Positions 24,962-36,484 of a stretch of DNA of 37,407 nt are shown one piece after another. The stretch covers positions 1-37,407 of the forward strand of contig WHTU01000030.1 in assembly GCA_009377575.1 (NCBI GenBank), in the 5' to 3' direction. The stretch's first letter is position 1. The number at the start of each line of letters is the position of its first letter. Origin of the DNA: Nitrososphaeraceae archaeon. Lineage in GTDB: Archaea > Thermoproteota > Nitrososphaeria > Nitrososphaerales > Nitrososphaeraceae. The notes below the pieces were generated by a model. That model had not been told where the DNA came from, did not search any database, and worked only from the letters and a program-made list of their open reading frames with translations. A program made the translations under genes and the position numbers.

Positions 24962-24975
24962 TTAGGTGACACTAA
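24962..24975 (+). promoter_or_regulatory. Metal-box-like operator of the hydantoinase-like gene
   Basis: TTAGGTGACACTAA, 18 bases before the ATG at 24994, with a TATA-like GTTTAAATAAAGG about 20 bases further upstream. It differs at two positions from the first operator copy at 28715. Single copy. It fits the TTAG-N6-CTAA pattern found at five other promoters in this window. Confidence 0.5.
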
Positions 24976-24993: not shown

Positions 24994-27591
24994 ATGTCTG
25001 CCGAACAACGTGAATATTTGAACCAAAATAAGATTGGAGAATCTGATGATCATGGCCAGAATATCGATATTTCTCCTCATACCAATTATCAGACCAATCC
25101 AGATTCTAAGAAAAGGCGGATAAGAGTTGGTATCGATGTCGGCGGCACGTTCACCAAAGCAGTTGCAATCGATATGGTCACAGGGAGTATTCTAGGACAG
25201 TCTACTCTTCCTACCACCCACAAATCAGATCAAGGTGTTTCAACAGGCATTTTACAAACACTATCATGTGTCATGAATGAATTTCATATACAAAATTCTG
25301 AAGTGGAACTCATATCTCACAGTACTACTCAGGCTGTGAATGCCCTGCTCGAAGGTGATACAGCTAATGTGGGAATCTTAGGAATGGGTGTTAGCTTAGA
25401 GAAGTCCAATATCATTAAACGCACACATATAAAAGATATTCTACTCGATGGTAACGGAAAAAAGTATATCAAGACTTGTTATAGGTACTTGGACACTTCC
25501 TCCTATTTGAGCGAAGAAAGGGTGAGATCTTTAATTTGCGAATTAGTACGCGAAGGAGCTGAGGTACTTGTAATCAGCGAAGCATATGGTGTAGACGATC
25601 CCAGTAACGAAGATTTCGTAGAAAATGTTGCAAGGTCAAGTAATATGGGAAGTGACGACAAGAAAGTTCCAATAATTGCAGCACATGATCTGACCGGGAT
25701 TTACGGTCTTGAGATCCGAACTATGACTGCAGTGATTAATGCAAGTATACTACCCAAAGCTGCCAGTACAGCAAAGTTTGTTGAATATGCCGTAAGAGAA
25801 AAGCTGGGAATTCCCAAGAATATATCAATAAAGGTAATGAAAGGTGATGGAGGAGTTACAGATATCAGTGCGTTTGAGACAAAACCCATTATAACTGTTC
25901 TTTCAGGGCCTGCTGCAAGTGTAGCGGGGGCTCTTCTTCACTTAAGGGTACTAAATGGGGTATTTGTAGAGGTTGGAGGGACTTCGACAAATGTGTGCGT
26001 AATAAAAGATGGTAAACCCAAAGTCAACTACGCAACCATTGTTCAACATCCAACATGTATTAGATCATTGGATGTGAGAGTTGTGAATGTCGCTGGAGGT
26101 TCTATTGTGATGTTGTCAAGAGATAAGCGAAAAATATTAGATGTGGGTCCACGATCCGCGCACATAGCGGGCTTGGAGTATTCCTGTTTTGCAGAGCCTT
26201 CCCAGCTCGAGGGAGGAACGATTGTACGATTTAGGCCTGAGATAGAAGATGACTCTGCTCTCAAAAACTCAACCAGTGTAAATGAGTCCAATAACAATGT
26301 CGAAGATCAAAGCATGGTCTACGCTGTAATTAAAGGCAGAGATCGGAATGATGAATCAGGAAAAGACGGGGACTTGAGAGAAAGGCTATTTGCCATAACT
26401 ACTACATGTGCAGCTAATGCGCTTGGTTTGATCTCTGATGACGATTATGCCAAAGGCAATTCCGAATCTGCTAAGATCGCCTTATCAATCCTTGCCAGAG
26501 AATTAGGTACTTCGGTGGAAAAAGCTGCCAACCAGATACTCGATATCGCGACCGACAAGATCTTGCAAATCATGAATCCTATGTTGAAGGAATATGCTTT
26601 AACCTACAATAGACCAAGAGGGTTTTTACTGAATAGGACGGAGAATAAAAACCGTTTTGGAAATAAGGAAGGAAATACTGCTAACTGTAATTTTTTATTA
26701 GTGGGAGGAGGCGGAGGTGCATCAGTCCTAGTTCCTCATCTAGCCAAGACACTTAATATGAATTATAAAAAAGCAGAACATGCAGAAGTCATATCTTCTA
26801 TCGGTGTAGCTGCAGCTATGATTCATGAAGAACTTGAGAAAACAGTTGATATGAATCCCAAGCCAGAAGAGGTCTCACTTATGATGGATGAAGTGAAAGA
26901 TCTAGCCTTAGCTAAAGGCGCTCTACCGGAGTCTATTACCGTACAATCAGAATATGTTAGCGATCGATCTCTCCTGCGAGTAACCGCAACAGGTAATATG
27001 AGCTTAGACATAGGCACAGCGAATTCTAGGGAGATTAGCATACTTGAAGCTGAAAACATCGCCAAGAGTCTATTTGGAACAACGACGAGCTCGAATTCAG
27101 AAGGTCCAGGTGGCGACATAAGGGAAGTAAATCGGAATGTGACCGTAAAACGAATTGATTTTAATATGAAGAATTATCATATATTTGAATGTGAAAAAAA
27201 AGTCAAGAATCTGTTGGGCTTTATCCCGCGTTCTCAGAAAACGCAAATTTCTATATTGATTCTCGATAAGTTTGGACGGGTAAGACTTTCCTTAGCAGGT
27301 GTAAACATTATCAAAGGTACCAAACAGGAAGTCTTGACTGGCCTGCTCACATTGCTAGGAAGTTCTGTTGGTCATACTAAGGAAAATGATGATGATAAAA
27401 ATAGTAGGTCCCAACACAGCAAAATTACAAAAGACAATCGCTGGGATCTTCCACCACAGGTGCATCTATTGGATGATATACGACTAATAGATTTTTCGAA
27501 TCTCACATCATCAGAAAATCTTTCTAAGGTCATCAGGGATGAGGTTCAAAAATCATCTTCGAAAGATGTTCTTGCTGTAATCAAAAAGTAA
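24994..27591 (+). CDS. Hydantoinase/oxoprolinase (HyuA)-like protein
   Basis: An 865-residue protein of the HyuA/oxoprolinase family, which hydrolyses hydantoin- or 5-oxoproline-type rings with ATP using an actin-like ATPase fold. After about 40 disordered residues comes the phosphate-binding loop VGIDVGGTFTKAVAID (about 45-60), then SHSTTQAVNALLEG, GDGGVTD (about 288) and VEVGGTSTNVCVIKDGK (about 325). A glycine-rich segment (LLVGGGGGASVLVPHLA) closes the ATPase core. Family members are usually about 650-720 residues; the extra 150-200 at the C terminus, after about 640, are specific. The HyuB partner is not in the window, so the substrate is open. A metal-box-like operator (24962) suggests metal-linked expression. 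Confidence 0.82.
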   Translation: MSAEQREYLNQNKIGESDDHGQNIDISPHTNYQTNPDSKKRRIRVGIDVGGTFTKAVAIDMVTGSILGQSTLPTTHKSDQGVSTGILQTLSCVMNEFHIQNSEVELISHSTTQAVNALLEGDTANVGILGMGVSLEKSNIIKRTHIKDILLDGNGKKYIKTCYRYLDTSSYLSEERVRSLICELVREGAEVLVISEAYGVDDPSNEDFVENVARSSNMGSDDKKVPIIAAHDLTGIYGLEIRTMTAVINASILPKAASTAKFVEYAVREKLGIPKNISIKVMKGDGGVTDISAFETKPIITVLSGPAASVAGALLHLRVLNGVFVEVGGTSTNVCVIKDGKPKVNYATIVQHPTCIRSLDVRVVNVAGGSIVMLSRDKRKILDVGPRSAHIAGLEYSCFAEPSQLEGGTIVRFRPEIEDDSALKNSTSVNESNNNVEDQSMVYAVIKGRDRNDESGKDGDLRERLFAITTTCAANALGLISDDDYAKGNSESAKIALSILARELGTSVEKAANQILDIATDKILQIMNPMLKEYALTYNRPRGFLLNRTENKNRFGNKEGNTANCNFLLVGGGGGASVLVPHLAKTLNMNYKKAEHAEVISSIGVAAAMIHEELEKTVDMNPKPEEVSLMMDEVKDLALAKGALPESITVQSEYVSDRSLLRVTATGNMSLDIGTANSREISILEAENIAKSLFGTTTSSNSEGPGGDIREVNRNVTVKRIDFNMKNYHIFECEKKVKNLLGFIPRSQKTQISILILDKFGRVRLSLAGVNIIKGTKQEVLTGLLTLLGSSVGHTKENDDDKNSRSQHSKITKDNRWDLPPQVHLLDDIRLIDFSNLTSSENLSKVIRDEVQKSSSKDVLAVIKK

Positions 27592-28714: not shown

Positions 28715-28742
28715 TTAGGCTACACTAATTAGGTTAGTCTAA
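28715..28742 (+). promoter_or_regulatory. Tandem 14-bp metal-box operator of the winged-helix gene
   Basis: Two abutting 14-mers, TTAGGCTACACTAA (28715-28728) and TTAGGTTAGTCTAA (28729-28742). They lie between the TATA-like ATTTAAATA and the ATG at 28749, so a bound repressor would block transcription initiation. The same TATA-box-box-ATG layout occurs on the minus strand before 33953 and 30473. Confidence 0.75.
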
Positions 28743-28748
28743 TCTGAA

Positions 28749-29063
28749 ATGAGCCTTTCAACTGATTACGAAGAAAAAAAATCACTATTGTTGTTGAGGG
28801 AGGTTGCAGAAATGATTACTTATAAAATAATTACATCAACCATGTACTCGGCTAAGAGTGTGCTCCAGATCTCTACTGAGAATAAGCTGCCATTGAGCTC
28901 AACTTACAAGAAGATAAGTAGTTTATGCAAAGCTGGAATTTTGTCTGTAGAAAGAGCTTCGATAGATGATAACGGAAAGAAGGTTCTCTATTATAGAAGT
29001 AAGATAAAAGCGATCGAGGCTTGTTTGAATAAAGATGGACTCGCTGTTCACATTAGGAAGTAG
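28749..29063 (+). CDS. Winged-helix DNA-binding regulator
   Basis: A 104-residue protein that is essentially one winged helix: helix 1 (LLLLREVAEMITYKIIT), helix-turn-helix (SAKSVLQISTENKLPLSSTY, then KKISSLCKAGIL) and a wing (VERASIDDNGKKVLYYRSK), in the style of small ArsR-like archaeal regulators. No metal-binding Cys/His cluster or DtxR-type dimerisation domain is present. The tandem operator overlapping its start suggests it is part of a metal-responsive circuit, as target or as autoregulator. ATG at 28749 is 6 bases behind the second box, so the transcript is leaderless or nearly so. Confidence 0.8.
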   Translation: MSLSTDYEEKKSLLLLREVAEMITYKIITSTMYSAKSVLQISTENKLPLSSTYKKISSLCKAGILSVERASIDDNGKKVLYYRSKIKAIEACLNKDGLAVHIRK

Positions 29064-29504: not shown

Positions 29505-29542
29505 ACAGCTATCAATTTTAATAACAACTACTTAGGAAATTT

Positions 29543-30010
29543 ATGGTCATGAATAGACAAGCATTGAACAGGAAATCCATGTTGATTATCTATGTGTGTC
29601 TTTTAGTTGCTGTATCTCTATTAGTAGACTCTATGACAAGTGGTTCTGTATTCGCTCAAGGTACAACTGAAAGTGACGCCGCAGAAGCAAGCGAAGAAGC
29701 CCAAGATACTGCCGAACCACTAGAACTAATCTGTACAATTCAGAGCTTGTTAAACCAAGCTGTAATAGAATACGGTGATCAGAATTTCACAGGTGCAGCA
29801 GAGCTTGCTCAAACCGCTTATTTGGATAATTATGAGCATCTAGAGACTCCTTTGGGTCAACTAGATCCAGCTTTGAAGGAAGCAACTGAAACAATGATCA
29901 GGGAAGACGTGCAAAGTGCAATAGAAACCAAAGCACCGCTTAGTGAATTGCAACAATTGGTCACTGCCATTGATGGCAATCTGACTACCGCTCAACAACT
30001 GTTCGATTGA
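29543..30010 (+). CDS. Secreted stand-alone copy of the FTR1 extracytoplasmic domain
   Basis: A 155-residue secreted protein: signal peptide at residues 8-33 (MLIIYVCLLVAVSLLV, cleavage near VFAQG), a short acidic linker, then one helical domain (about 60-154). The domain contains AAELAQTAYLDNYEHLETPL, LDPALKEATETMIREDV and VTAIDGNLTTAQQLF. It aligns by eye with the repeats of the FTR1 permease at 34073-36484 (AADATAIKAYLDNFEYLEAP and ALLAARSAYLDSYETVEIPL), sharing AYLDxxE-x-x-E-x-P and the following x-DP. In FTR1/EfeU-type transporters this part lies outside the membrane and may handle iron. A separate secreted copy could capture or deliver metal. Start is ATG 29543 or 29549. Confidence 0.8.
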   Translation: MVMNRQALNRKSMLIIYVCLLVAVSLLVDSMTSGSVFAQGTTESDAAEASEEAQDTAEPLELICTIQSLLNQAVIEYGDQNFTGAAELAQTAYLDNYEHLETPLGQLDPALKEATETMIREDVQSAIETKAPLSELQQLVTAIDGNLTTAQQLFD

Positions 30011-30335: not shown

Positions 30336-30473
30336 TTAGAAACCTACTCGATTGGATCGATGGTTTTTAGTCAAATTCCAATCGAGTAGGAGGTGTATTT
30401 TCTGACCTGGCGTTTGCAGTGTTCTTCTATCGGAATTTCCATAGATGCCAATCCCAGACATTCCAATAGTCAT
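30336..30473 (-). CDS. 45-codon ORF behind a tandem metal box
   Basis: A short ORF on the minus strand with ATG at 30471-30473 and TAA at 30336-30338, too short for usual gene finders. It encodes MTIGMSGIGIYGNSDRRTLQ and ends in NRVGF; no family is recognised. The reason to consider it is its promoter: a TATA-like ATAAATA, two abutting 14-bp boxes (30486-30513) and then the ATG 12 bases later, the same layout as at 28749 and 33953. Its last 16 codons overlap a perfect 14-bp inverted repeat. It could be a small protein, or the transcript could be a metal-regulated small RNA ending in a hairpin. Confidence 0.4.
   Translation of the reverse strand: MTIGMSGIGIYGNSDRRTLQTPGQKIHLLLDWNLTKNHRSNRVGF
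30343..30390. repeat. Perfect 14-bp inverted repeat
   Basis: CCTACTCGATTGGA (30343-30356) and TCCAATCGAGTAGG (30377-30390) are exact reverse complements with a 20-base loop. A stable RNA hairpin is expected on either strand. It lies at the 3' end of the ORF 30336-30473 and has no strong T tract on either side. Confidence 0.9.
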
Positions 30474-30485
30474 TGGTTCACCGTA

Positions 30486-30513
30486 TTAGTTAATCCTAAT
30501 TAGGTTAGGCTAT
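30486..30513 (-). promoter_or_regulatory. Tandem metal-box operator of a small ORF or RNA
   Basis: Two abutting 14-mers on the plus strand, TTAGTTAATCCTAA (30486-30499) and TTAGGTTAGGCTAT (30500-30513). The second matches the start of the mycobacterial IdeR iron-box consensus (TTAGGTTAGGCTAACCTAA) over 13 bases. A TATA-like ATAAATA lies on the right side, so transcription is probably leftward, towards 30473. Confidence 0.65.
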
Positions 30514-32711: not shown

Positions 32712-33197
32712 TTAATGGATTTCCAGCTTTGCGAGAATGTCCTCGATAGTCTGTTCGTCTTCCAGTTCCGCGTCAAGTAGGTCTAGTGCTAGATGATAAC
32801 TGCCGTGATCTTTGTCCTTAACATTATTGGCAAGATCATTGTACAACTTGATAACGCTTCTTTCGAATTCCAAAGCTTTTTCTAAAGCACTGCGAAGTGT
32901 CAAATACCTTGAAGGTTGTAGCTTGCCCAATCCGCTTTCTTGTTCCCACAAGGAAGGGTCATCTTTGGCATTAGTTCCAAGCTGCATCAGCCTAACGGAG
33001 ACTTTTTTGGCATGTCCCAATTCTTCATCTGCTCGTTCTTCAAAAAACTTTTGTTCCAGCACACCCAATCCTTCTATATTCTGAGAAACGTACCAGAAAT
33101 AATGAAATGCCGATAACTCTCCAGCATATGCAGTCTTCAGCATCTCTATTGTGCCTTCAACGCCAGAGCCTGCTATTTCTTTTCCCATTTTGCCCAT
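32712..33197 (-). CDS. Ferritin-like iron-storage protein
   Basis: A 161-residue four-helix bundle of the ferritin/Dps-like group. Di-iron ligands can be placed: Glu27 (YAGELSAFHYFW), Glu59 and His62 (ADEELGHAKK), Glu112 (LEFERSVIKLYNDLA) and the Glu pair near 144-148 (DAELEDEQTIED). This E, ExxH, E, ExxE set is the ferroxidase pattern, so it should oxidise Fe(II) and store it or protect against peroxide. Length and the ELGHA motif resemble archaeal Dps-like and bacterioferritin-like proteins without a haem site. The ATG at 33195-33197 is clear. A single metal-box-like site directly behind a TATA-like element upstream (33250) ties it to the local metal circuit. Confidence 0.85.
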   Translation of the reverse strand: MGKMGKEIAGSGVEGTIEMLKTAYAGELSAFHYFWYVSQNIEGLGVLEQKFFEERADEELGHAKKVSVRLMQLGTNAKDDPSLWEQESGLGKLQPSRYLTLRSALEKALEFERSVIKLYNDLANNVKDKDHGSYHLALDLLDAELEDEQTIEDILAKLEIH

Positions 33198-33758: not shown

Positions 33759-33953
33759 TCAAGGTGCATCTTTCAAGACTATCACATTGCCATACGTAAC
33801 CTGAACCTCGTTCATTCCATATGTAATCTGGTCCAAAGGATCTAAAATCCCATCAGTATTGTCACAAATGTAGGTCGTTAAATCTATTTCTTCAACTTTT
33901 TCAATTTTTTCATTCTTATTTATACTTTCGAGAAATTTGAAAGCCTTTTTCAT
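33759..33953 (-). CDS. Unknown small protein, first gene of metal-box operon
   Basis: A 64-residue soluble, acidic protein (FLESINKNEKIEKVEEIDLT, then DNTDGILDPLDQITYG and VQVTYGNVIVLKDAP), probably a small alpha/beta or beta-rich fold. One Cys only, so no obvious metal site. It is the first gene of a two-gene operon whose ATG lies 2 bases behind a tandem 14-bp operator, so transcripts are almost leaderless. It is divergent from FTR1. I do not recognise a family; its control predicts a role during metal limitation. Confidence 0.6.
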   Translation of the reverse strand: MKKAFKFLESINKNEKIEKVEEIDLTTYICDNTDGILDPLDQITYGMNEVQVTYGNVIVLKDAP

Positions 33954-33955
33954 TG

Positions 33956-33983
33956 TTAGACTTTCCTAATTAGGATATCCTAA
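33956..33983 (-). promoter_or_regulatory. Tandem metal-box operator of the 33953 operon
   Basis: On the minus strand the order is TTTAAATA, then TTAGGATATCCTAA (33983-33970, a perfect palindrome), then TTAGGAAAGTCTAA (33969-33956), CA and the ATG at 33953. The layout and bases match the promoter at 28707-28749 almost position for position. Confidence 0.8.
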
Positions 33984-34055: not shown

Positions 34056-34069
34056 TTAGGTTAGCCTAA
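34056..34069 (+). promoter_or_regulatory. Metal-box operator of the FTR1 gene
   Basis: TTAGGTTAGCCTAA, 3 bases before the ATG at 34073, identical to the first 14 bases of the bacterial DtxR consensus (TTAGGTTAGCCTAACCTAA). It lies where transcription should begin, about 25 bases behind TTTAATAAAAG (34024-34034). A bound protein would block initiation. Confidence 0.75.
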
Positions 34070-34072
34070 TAG

Positions 34073-36484
34073 ATGAGTCTGAGCAGACGCTTAACAGAAT
34101 CGTTATTTTTAGCGTTTTTGATTCTTGTAGCTAGTAATTTAGTTATTTCCTCGTTTTTTATCGACGATGGAATCGCGCAGCAATTAGCCGAAAACCAACA
34201 AGCGGCAGATCCACTTATAGTTTTCATCAATCTAGAAAGGATTGGAACTCAACTTAACCTCACGCAATACAGTTTAAACAGCGGTGACCTCGAATCTGCA
34301 TTCCAACATGCCTATATTCCTCATTCGGTCACCTTCCCAGTAATTAAGCCCATATTAGGCCAAGCAGACCCAGCTTCTTCAAAAAGTCTTGAAGCACTGC
34401 TTACTGATCTTCCAATTAAGATTCGAACCTCAAATAGTCCAGAAGTGGCAAATACCAATATAGAATCTGATGTTGCAACGATAAACAACTTACTGAACAG
34501 CTTCTCGAACTCGACTGCGGGACAAGTGGCTGTTGAAGATAAGGGATTTTTCCTGCAAGCCTCAGCTGTGCTTCTGGAAGACGCAATTCAATCCTACAAG
34601 CTAGCTAACGCTTCATCTACCCAGGATGGATCTAGCACATTTAATCTTCAGAATTCGTTAGGGTTGGTAAACACGTCACTTGCAGATTTTGAAAGGATTT
34701 CGGACTCAGTTGATGAGCGGAGACGGGATGAAATTAGATCTTTTTATCAACAGATACAAGAAAGCATGAACAATGATACTCCATTTGATACCGTGGCAAG
34801 TGTTGCTTCTGCAATTGAACGAGACTTTACAGAGGAACTAACTTTAAGTGGTGGCAGCGAGAGCGCATCAGAACAGGCAATATACTTTTCTACTATAAGG
34901 GATCTGCTTAACAGTACTATTGCATCGGTGAACGAGGGCGACTATGAAGCTGCAGATGCAACTGCAATCAAAGCATATCTAGATAACTTTGAATATCTGG
35001 AAGCGCCTATCGAAAAACATGACCCCGAGTTGATGCTTGATATCGAAATAGAGATGAGGGAAGAACTTCGTCAAATGATAAGGGAGGAACGTTCTCCACA
35101 AGAGATTAGTGGTTTTATCACAGCTATCATAGGCAAATTGGACCAAGCTGAAGATTTGCTCAAAAATGATCCTGAATACCGTTCGAATTTGAATACTAAC
35201 ACAACAGCTAGCGGGTCTTCACTTGCAAATATTCAAGGATTGAGGGAAGGCTTCGGTACTTATACTGGTGAAATTCGGCAGATGGGAAAAGCAGATGATC
35301 CAGCAAAGGAATCTGTGAGAAACAACATAGACCAGATAAGATTGAAACTAAGTGAGATGCTTAGATTATATGAGAATAAGAATTACGAAGGTGCACTTTT
35401 GGCCGCACGGTCGGCATATCTAGATAGTTATGAGACCGTTGAAATTCCACTTAGGCCAATAGACCCTGATTTCACACTCGAGATGGAGATTAGATTTGCA
35501 GAACTAAGGAACCTACTTCAGCAGCATGTGCCATTACAGGAGGTCGAGGGAAAGACCATAGAGATTAGAAGAGGATTAGACGAATCAGAGAGGCTTGTGT
35601 CGGGTGTGGGAATTGTAGCACCTGCAATTGCATTCTCAACTTCATTTTCCATTATATTCAGAGAAGGCCTTGAATCAGCCTTAATAATAGGCGCGATTCT
35701 TACATATCTGCAAGCAACAAGAAATAACCGCTTCAAAAAGCATGTCTACTACGGTATTCTAATTGCAGTAGTGGCTACAGCTGCAACATGGTTTGTGGCA
35801 CAATATATCATAGAAATATCTGGGGCCAACAGAGAACTAATAGAAGCTGTTGCTGGCCTTTCTGCTGTAGCAGTTCTTTTCTGGGTAAGCTTCTGGGTAT
35901 TAAACAAGATCGAAACCAAAAAATGGATCGAATTCGTTAAAGCAAAGGTCTGGAAGGCCACTACAACAGGAAGTGTAATTGTATTTGTTGCTCTGGCATT
36001 TTTCACGGTCTATAGAGAAGGTTTTGAGACCGTCTTGTTTTACCAGGCCATGCTATCCTTTGCAAAGTACATGGAGTTATACGTTATTGCTGGTATGATC
36101 ATAGGACTTGCGGTTATCATTGGAGTAGCTATCTTAATCAACAGACTTGGCAGAAGATTGCCCCTAAGAGTACTCTTCGCCTTAACCATGGGAATTGGAG
36201 CTTATATGTCCATAGCATTCATGGGCAATGCAGTTAGAGAATTGCAAGAATTAGGAGTGGTGCCTACTACTCCGTTGGTCGGCATAGTTCCAAGGTTGGA
36301 TATTAACTTAGCTACTATGACCGGAATTCATCCGACATTAGAATCGGTTATAGCTCAGATTGTTCTCCTTTCCATATACCTGATAGGTTCCCTTTATATA
36401 CTGGTTCTGAAGCCCCGGAGGCAGAAAGCTATCGAAAGTGCACGAAAGTCGATGGCAGAGCTTCACGGAAAGAGAGAAGGATGA
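34073..36484 (+). CDS. FTR1-family iron permease with large extracytoplasmic region
   Basis: An 803-residue high-affinity iron permease. A signal/anchor segment (residues 8-30) is followed by about 480 residues outside the membrane with at least three copies of one helical domain (AYIPHSVTFPVIKP near 79, AYLDNFEYLEAPIEKHD near 301, AYLDSYETVEIPLRPID near 448). The C-terminal third is the FTR1/EfeU membrane domain of about seven helices with both hallmark iron motifs, REGLE (about 529, IIFREGLESALIIG) and REGFE (about 647, VYREGFETVLFY). It transports iron, probably Fe(III) or oxidised Fe(II), across the membrane. A DtxR-like box overlaps its start. The gene is divergent from the two-gene operon at 33492-33953. 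Confidence 0.93.
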   Translation: MSLSRRLTESLFLAFLILVASNLVISSFFIDDGIAQQLAENQQAADPLIVFINLERIGTQLNLTQYSLNSGDLESAFQHAYIPHSVTFPVIKPILGQADPASSKSLEALLTDLPIKIRTSNSPEVANTNIESDVATINNLLNSFSNSTAGQVAVEDKGFFLQASAVLLEDAIQSYKLANASSTQDGSSTFNLQNSLGLVNTSLADFERISDSVDERRRDEIRSFYQQIQESMNNDTPFDTVASVASAIERDFTEELTLSGGSESASEQAIYFSTIRDLLNSTIASVNEGDYEAADATAIKAYLDNFEYLEAPIEKHDPELMLDIEIEMREELRQMIREERSPQEISGFITAIIGKLDQAEDLLKNDPEYRSNLNTNTTASGSSLANIQGLREGFGTYTGEIRQMGKADDPAKESVRNNIDQIRLKLSEMLRLYENKNYEGALLAARSAYLDSYETVEIPLRPIDPDFTLEMEIRFAELRNLLQQHVPLQEVEGKTIEIRRGLDESERLVSGVGIVAPAIAFSTSFSIIFREGLESALIIGAILTYLQATRNNRFKKHVYYGILIAVVATAATWFVAQYIIEISGANRELIEAVAGLSAVAVLFWVSFWVLNKIETKKWIEFVKAKVWKATTTGSVIVFVALAFFTVYREGFETVLFYQAMLSFAKYMELYVIAGMIIGLAVIIGVAILINRLGRRLPLRVLFALTMGIGAYMSIAFMGNAVRELQELGVVPTTPLVGIVPRLDINLATMTGIHPTLESVIAQIVLLSIYLIGSLYILVLKPRRQKAIESARKSMAELHGKREG

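Follow-up and report, generated by a model that had tools for sequence, protein, structure and literature searches.

A secreted copy of the FTR1 ectodomain bundle suggests a home-made iron-catching partner of the permease in a soil ammonia-oxidising archaeon

Introduction

The closest described systems to the locus reported here are those of EfeO and EfeM, secreted all-helical proteins of two bundles that partner an FTR1-type permease, and that of P19, a beta-sandwich, copper-dependent protein. FetP/P19 of the FetMP system is a small exported periplasmic iron-binding partner of FetM (PMC10783030), and of the other pair EfeM shows a preference for copper, iron and zinc, whereas samarium binding in vitro is described for EfeO (PMC9174327). 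Iron uptake of ammonia-oxidising archaea is poorly understood, which sets the context of the present finding. The copper demand of ammonia oxidisers is large (PMC7785015). For IdeR/DtxR regulators, the minimal site is a 14-bp box, TTAGGNNNNCCTAA (PMC8464063). The DNA analysed in this work is a 37,407-nucleotide stretch of a Nitrososphaeraceae archaeon (contig WHTU01000030.1), referred to throughout as the window, which encodes an FTR1 permease and a small secreted protein homologous to the ectodomain of that permease.

Results and discussion

The secreted protein is encoded on the forward strand by an open reading frame listed at 29543–30010. Its true start is probably 29549 rather than 29543, giving a gene of 29549–30010 and a product of 153 aa, because the ATG at 29543 is replaced by ATT in an 84%-identical congener and sits within a decayed regulatory box. 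The N-terminal signal peptide (residues 1–36; 29549–29656, forward strand) reads SLLVDSMTSGSVFA followed by Q, with the predicted cut between the VFA of GSVFA and that Q, and both the hydrophobic run and the A-x-A end before Q are shared in the aligned family. A mature domain of roughly 96 residues follows. Besides the signal peptide the product contains no further hydrophobic helix or membrane domain, and the PF03239 membrane domain with its REGLE motifs was absent by Pfam search and by sequence. The FTR1 permease (34073–36484, forward strand) was assigned by profile search and modelling, and consists of an ectodomain of about 515 residues, predicted to form four four-helix bundles, coupled to a PF03239 membrane part. 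In BLASTP against this FTR1 the secreted protein aligned over 91 aa with repeat R2 (residues 271–360; 34883–35152, forward strand) at 34% identity (E=7e-14), and it also matched repeat R3 (residues 419–506; 35327–35590, forward strand) with E=2e-9; R2 is the nearest FTR1 repeat both by BLASTP and in the domain tree. A preliminary description of this DNA had proposed a match between the mature part and the FTR1 repeats, a signal peptide with no membrane domain, and a position 4 kb from the permease, all of which was borne out, the distance being 4.06 kb. A whole-genome search with the secreted protein returned, in addition to its own entry, the two FTR1 repeats; it also recovered a domain of 45% identity within a 427-aa protein on contig C99. 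Profile searches of the secreted domain against Pfam, NCBIfam and the PDB returned chance-level matches only, and no family covers the domain.

An AlphaFold model built with 32 homologues showed a single four-helix bundle at residues 57–152 (29717–30004, forward strand), a span also marked by conservation, with helices at 57–76, 80–105, 107–126 and 131–152, pLDDT of 95–99 within the domain and a disordered linker between the signal peptide and the bundle. The FTR1 model, of lower confidence (mean pLDDT 63.6, ectodomain blocks mostly 75–89), contains four consecutive four-helix bundles, of which R2 (267–364) and R3 (410–510) have the same helix pattern as the secreted bundle. The structure prediction proposed as a check in the preliminary description thus gave a confident bundle whose helix boundaries parallel those of R2 and R3, an agreement of secondary-structure pattern rather than of superposed coordinates, and set against an FTR1 model of moderate quality. 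On these models, the view that the secreted bundle has the fold of R2 and R3 is supported. Foldseek against the PDB gave no significant match to the secreted domain, the hits being generic helical bundles with a best E of 0.09. Within the bundle, residues Tyr91, Asp93, Glu96 and Glu99 of helix 2 and Glu114 and Arg118 of helix 3 are invariant in 32 of 32 single-bundle proteins, and R2 and R3 of FTR1 retain an almost identical acidic set. Bundles 1 and 2 of the three-bundle free proteins bear additional invariant GH, HxxHPIxE, EYxE and E(Y/F)QD motifs. Judged by sequence conservation, these acidic and histidine residues look like candidate metal ligands.

The preliminary description had drawn a parallel with EfeO. 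Like EfeO and EfeM, the window protein is a secreted all-helical protein with a Y-E-x-x-E motif, and genetic linkage to an FTR1-type permease is present in the window and in relatives. In contrast, EfeO and EfeM have two bundles where the window protein has one, and the window protein carries no cupredoxin domain. The paired four-helix bundles with a GxHxxE motif that characterise M75 proteins were not found, the window protein being a single bundle with no HxxE; HxxHPIxE is confined here to the three-bundle relatives, where it is invariant. Comparison with an alignment of seven real EfeO proteins led to rejection of homology to EfeO/M75 (hhalign probability 1–2%, hmmsearch E above 0.3), and the FTR1 ectodomain model gave only weak, non-significant Foldseek matches to Algp7, EfeM and EfeO (E 0.4–1.9). 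Since profile comparison gave no homology, the protein is at most a functional analogue of EfeO. An EfeO-like role stays plausible; it is the kinship with EfeO/M75 that was not found. Like FetP, the protein is small, exported and associated with an FTR1 that bears an ectodomain.

The repeat itself also occurs in bacteria. A profile of the free proteins matched E. coli FetM in three copies (3e-11, 1e-7 and 1e-5), Deinococcus FTR1 in two (5e-19 and 2e-16) and Sphingorhabdus FTR1 in one (1e-12). Permeases of the FTR1 type that bear an ectodomain thus have this repeat as a general component, and it is not specifically archaeal. In these bacterial FTR1 ectodomains the repeat is fused to the permease, whereas the archaeal copy in the window is a free secreted protein. 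On plasmid p_TS293_3 of Deinococcus taeanensis, however, the ectodomain is annotated as a separate CDS ahead of the FTR1 CDS, and a hydantoinase gene comes next; this ectodomain is multi-bundle, unlike the single bundle of the window protein. The ectodomain and permease CDSs of this plasmid (NZ_CP083457.1, locus L152, 4914–7109) are split by one in-frame stop with three bases between them, and may represent a mutated fusion. The preliminary description further suggested that the protein may be built from the permease's own repeat. A FastTree tree of the domains argues against an excision directly from the window FTR1, which is now improbable: most single-bundle proteins cluster (support 0.89) with the C-terminal domains of long free proteins, and the FTR1 R2 clade is their sister (0.88), in a tree whose deeper nodes are weak. 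The single-bundle forms are thus probably derived, perhaps repeatedly, from longer free ectodomains.

Free forms of the ectodomain fall into three size classes: single-bundle (about 135–187 aa), three-bundle (about 360–430 aa) and longer. A PEFG-CTERM anchor signal (TIGR04296, E=1e-9) ends one protein of the longest class. The domain was found in 34 of 61 genomes, comprising the source genome and 60 relatives, and many free one- and three-bundle versions are carried by Nitrososphaeraceae and Nitrosopumilaceae, with few exceptions alongside an FTR1 that bears this ectodomain. A scan of one genome per species across 84,980 species yielded 170 encoding stretches, and all but one of the 80 kept are titled as groups of ammonia-oxidising archaea. 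The proposed survey supported co-occurrence with ectodomain-bearing FTR1, in counts combined by hand from the domain and PF03239 tables and uncorrected for shared descent. Within the window's family, a free copy is present in 25 of the 28 genomes with an FTR1 (PF03239) hit, absent from G013 and G017 and unclear in G034; eight of the nine genomes with no FTR1 hit have no free copy, and in the ninth (G035) there are fragments at the ends of contigs, among them possibly a truncated FTR1. In other families, six genomes (G039, G041, G047, G051, G055 and G060) encode a short FTR1 of about 277–313 aa with no ectodomain, and the domain was found in none of them. The exceptions are G037 and G053, which show weak domain matches and no FTR1. 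As separate observations, a free three-bundle protein closely like Nitrosopumilaceae copies lies on a contig labelled Gammaproteobacteria BBSC-SA02 (L116, 7281–8501), possibly mislabelled or contaminating, and one genome (G015; L040, 2272–7309) encodes a cluster of free ectodomain proteins of 725 aa and 412 aa, after which comes another FTR1-like ectodomain, broken into two reading frames of 251 aa and 114 aa.

Two further genes accompany FTR1 and the free ectodomain. One encodes a hydantoinase/oxoprolinase-like protein (24994–27591, forward strand), homologues of which lie directly 3' of FTR1 in Nitrosopumilaceae and on the Deinococcus plasmid; the other encodes a winged-helix (HTH) regulator of 104 aa (28749–29063, forward strand), whose homologues occur alongside FTR1 and genes for free ectodomains. 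In the Nitrosopumilaceae type of locus the order is HTH, free ectodomain, FTR1 and hydantoinase/oxoprolinase-like gene (L098, L099, L102 and L112; partial in L039, L089 and L145), and the free ectodomain gene lies directly upstream of FTR1 in six loci (L039, L089, L098, L099, L102 and L112). In L066 a single-bundle gene is found just upstream of FTR1 with the HTH homologue next. Hydantoinase, HTH and single-bundle gene follow one another in this order in the window and in two congeners, L055 and L060, and the window FTR1 lies 4 kb further on. From the orders in both locus types, the four genes are therefore linked in both families. The hydantoinase-like gene was seen linked to FTR1 in the window, in L039, L089, L098, L099, L102, L112, L145 and L077, and in Deinococcus (L152, 7106–9175), with a box of its own in some. 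Around FTR1 of a Nitrososphaera-like genome (G027), the stretch read contained no trace of the copC/D cluster published as copper-responsive.

Seven TTAGGNNNNCCTAA sites with at most one mismatch were found in the window against 1.1 expected: two are perfect (34056 and 33970) and five carry a single mismatch (24962, 28715, 28729, 30486 and 33956). Immediately 5' of the FTR1 start lies a perfect box matching the published IdeR/DtxR consensus (PMC8464063), TTAGGTTAGCCTAA (34056–34069), preceded by the tandem boxes TTAGACTTTCCTAA and TTAGGATATCCTAA (33956–33983) between the reverse-strand ORF at 33953 and FTR1. Tandem boxes also lie 5' of the HTH gene (28715–28742) and in the intergenic stretch that follows the secreted gene on its 3' side (30486–30513), and the one-mismatch box TTAGGTGACACTAA (24962–24975) lies 5' of the hydantoinase-like gene. 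Related loci contain 40 perfect boxes in 858 kb compared with 0 in Markov shuffles, and boxes with at most one mismatch stand 5' of 26 of 30 FTR1 genes, 8 of 41 single-bundle genes and 8 of 39 long free genes, compared with 12 of 446 other ORFs. Seven loci of other species (L021, L023, L024, L025, L079, L108 and L111) show a perfect box at −16/−17 relative to the single-bundle gene, and 33 of the 41 single-bundle genes have no box inside 200 bp. Perfect boxes were not enriched genome-wide (5 versus 9 for the reversed control), so that the box is meaningful only jointly with its position and conservation; two of the five are at the FTR1 promoter. The window genome encodes five DtxR-family proteins.

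At the secreted gene itself, comparison with congeners revealed only a degenerate box, TTAGGAAATTTATG (29532–29545, forward strand), so that TTAGGNNNNCCTAA is found at the FTR1 promoter of the window and not at that of the secreted gene. Across the genus the site reads TTAGGCTAACTTAA (L007), TTAGGTTAATTTAA (L055) and TTAGGAAATTTATG (window) and is gone in L060; in L007 and L055 it is off by one to two mismatches. The description of a single box-controlled region consequently stands for FTR1, the HTH and hydantoinase genes and small ORFs, which have perfect or near-perfect boxes, and fails for the secreted gene. Elsewhere in this genome, on a different contig, a three-bundle paralogue has a one-mismatch box, TTAGGTTCAACTAA, just 5' of its likely start. 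It was also observed that, in many relatives, homologues of the 104-aa HTH gene of the window likewise have tandem boxes and neighbour FTR1 or a free ectodomain gene; this regulator may be autoregulated or form a second switch.

As a functional analogue of EfeO or FetP, the window protein would most likely serve in extracytoplasmic capture of a metal, iron, that feeds FTR1. We lean, with somewhat better than even confidence, towards a route in which the secreted bundle takes iron outside the cell and passes it to the FTR1 repeats under IdeR/DtxR-type control. We infer that expression would depend on iron, with shortage relieving an IdeR/DtxR-type repressor and the free ectodomain then being produced. 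The invariant acidic cluster of Asp93, Glu96, Glu99 and Glu114 would bind iron outside the membrane, and the bound iron would be handed, by docking, from the free bundle to the homologous repeats on FTR1. In this genus the secreted protein would be an auxiliary, partly relaxed component. Why a free bundle should be required is not obvious, as FTR1 itself already contains four.

The strongest challenge to iron capture, in our judgement unlikely yet the first to be weighed, is that the protein is a relic: a once co-regulated free ectodomain with little function left, which is being lost in the genus as the three-bundle paralogue suffices. The degenerate box points this way, as does the longer paralogue, which is intact and has a one-mismatch box elsewhere in this genome. 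Between the window and L055 the dN/dS of the secreted gene reaches 0.32 over the whole gene and 0.21 in the mature part, compared with about 0.10–0.12 for FTR1 in comparable congeners, and the ORF is interrupted in two congeners (G003/L054 and G001/L060). Selection on the gene is thus purifying but weaker than on FTR1, and the protein is seemingly dispensable in some congeners; from these sequence comparisons the gene seems partly relaxed or decaying in this genus. Against a relic, however, the window ORF is intact, its mature part is still constrained (dN/dS 0.21) and all invariant acidic residues are present, and in other genera the family is well conserved, with dN/dS mostly 0.04–0.22.

Less probable still is a regulatory or structural partner: as a subunit for assembly or gating, the free bundle would dock on the FTR1 ectodomain and carry no metal. 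Its homology to the bundles of the ectodomain and the gene linkage seen in relatives would fit such a role, but the invariant DxxExxE and E/R cluster probably resembles a ligand set more than a mere packing interface. That the same carrier architecture serves copper, manganese or a lanthanide, FTR1 being named by homology only, accords with the metal preferences of EfeM and EfeO and the copper demand noted above, but is very improbable given the IdeR/DtxR consensus of the box, the assignment of PF03239 as an iron permease family, and the copper-limitation promoter motif of N. viennensis, which occurs in the window no more than expected by chance.

Extending the iron-capture reading to ammonia-oxidising archaea at large is more tentative, with chances a little short of even: they would possess a self-contained iron uptake in which the soluble capture partner consists of free copies of the permease ectodomain, co-regulated through IdeR-type boxes with FTR1, the HTH regulator and the hydantoinase-like enzyme. 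Such an arrangement suggests one fold common to the soluble carrier and the permease dock, and the linked box-controlled set of four genes offers a directly testable iron system in soil and some marine lineages.

Two other features of the interval between the secreted gene and FTR1 were observed. A ferritin-like protein (PF00210, 6.5e-18) is encoded on the reverse strand at 32712–33197 and is conserved at 95–99% in congeners. Directly behind the tandem boxes at 30486–30513 is an ORF of 45 codons (30336–30473, reverse strand), with congener identity of 94% in L054 and 57% in L060, which is possibly an unannotated iron-responsive small protein; in the same region, at 30343–30390, lies a perfect inverted repeat of 14 bp, CCTACTCGATTGGA, whose loop spans 20 nt.
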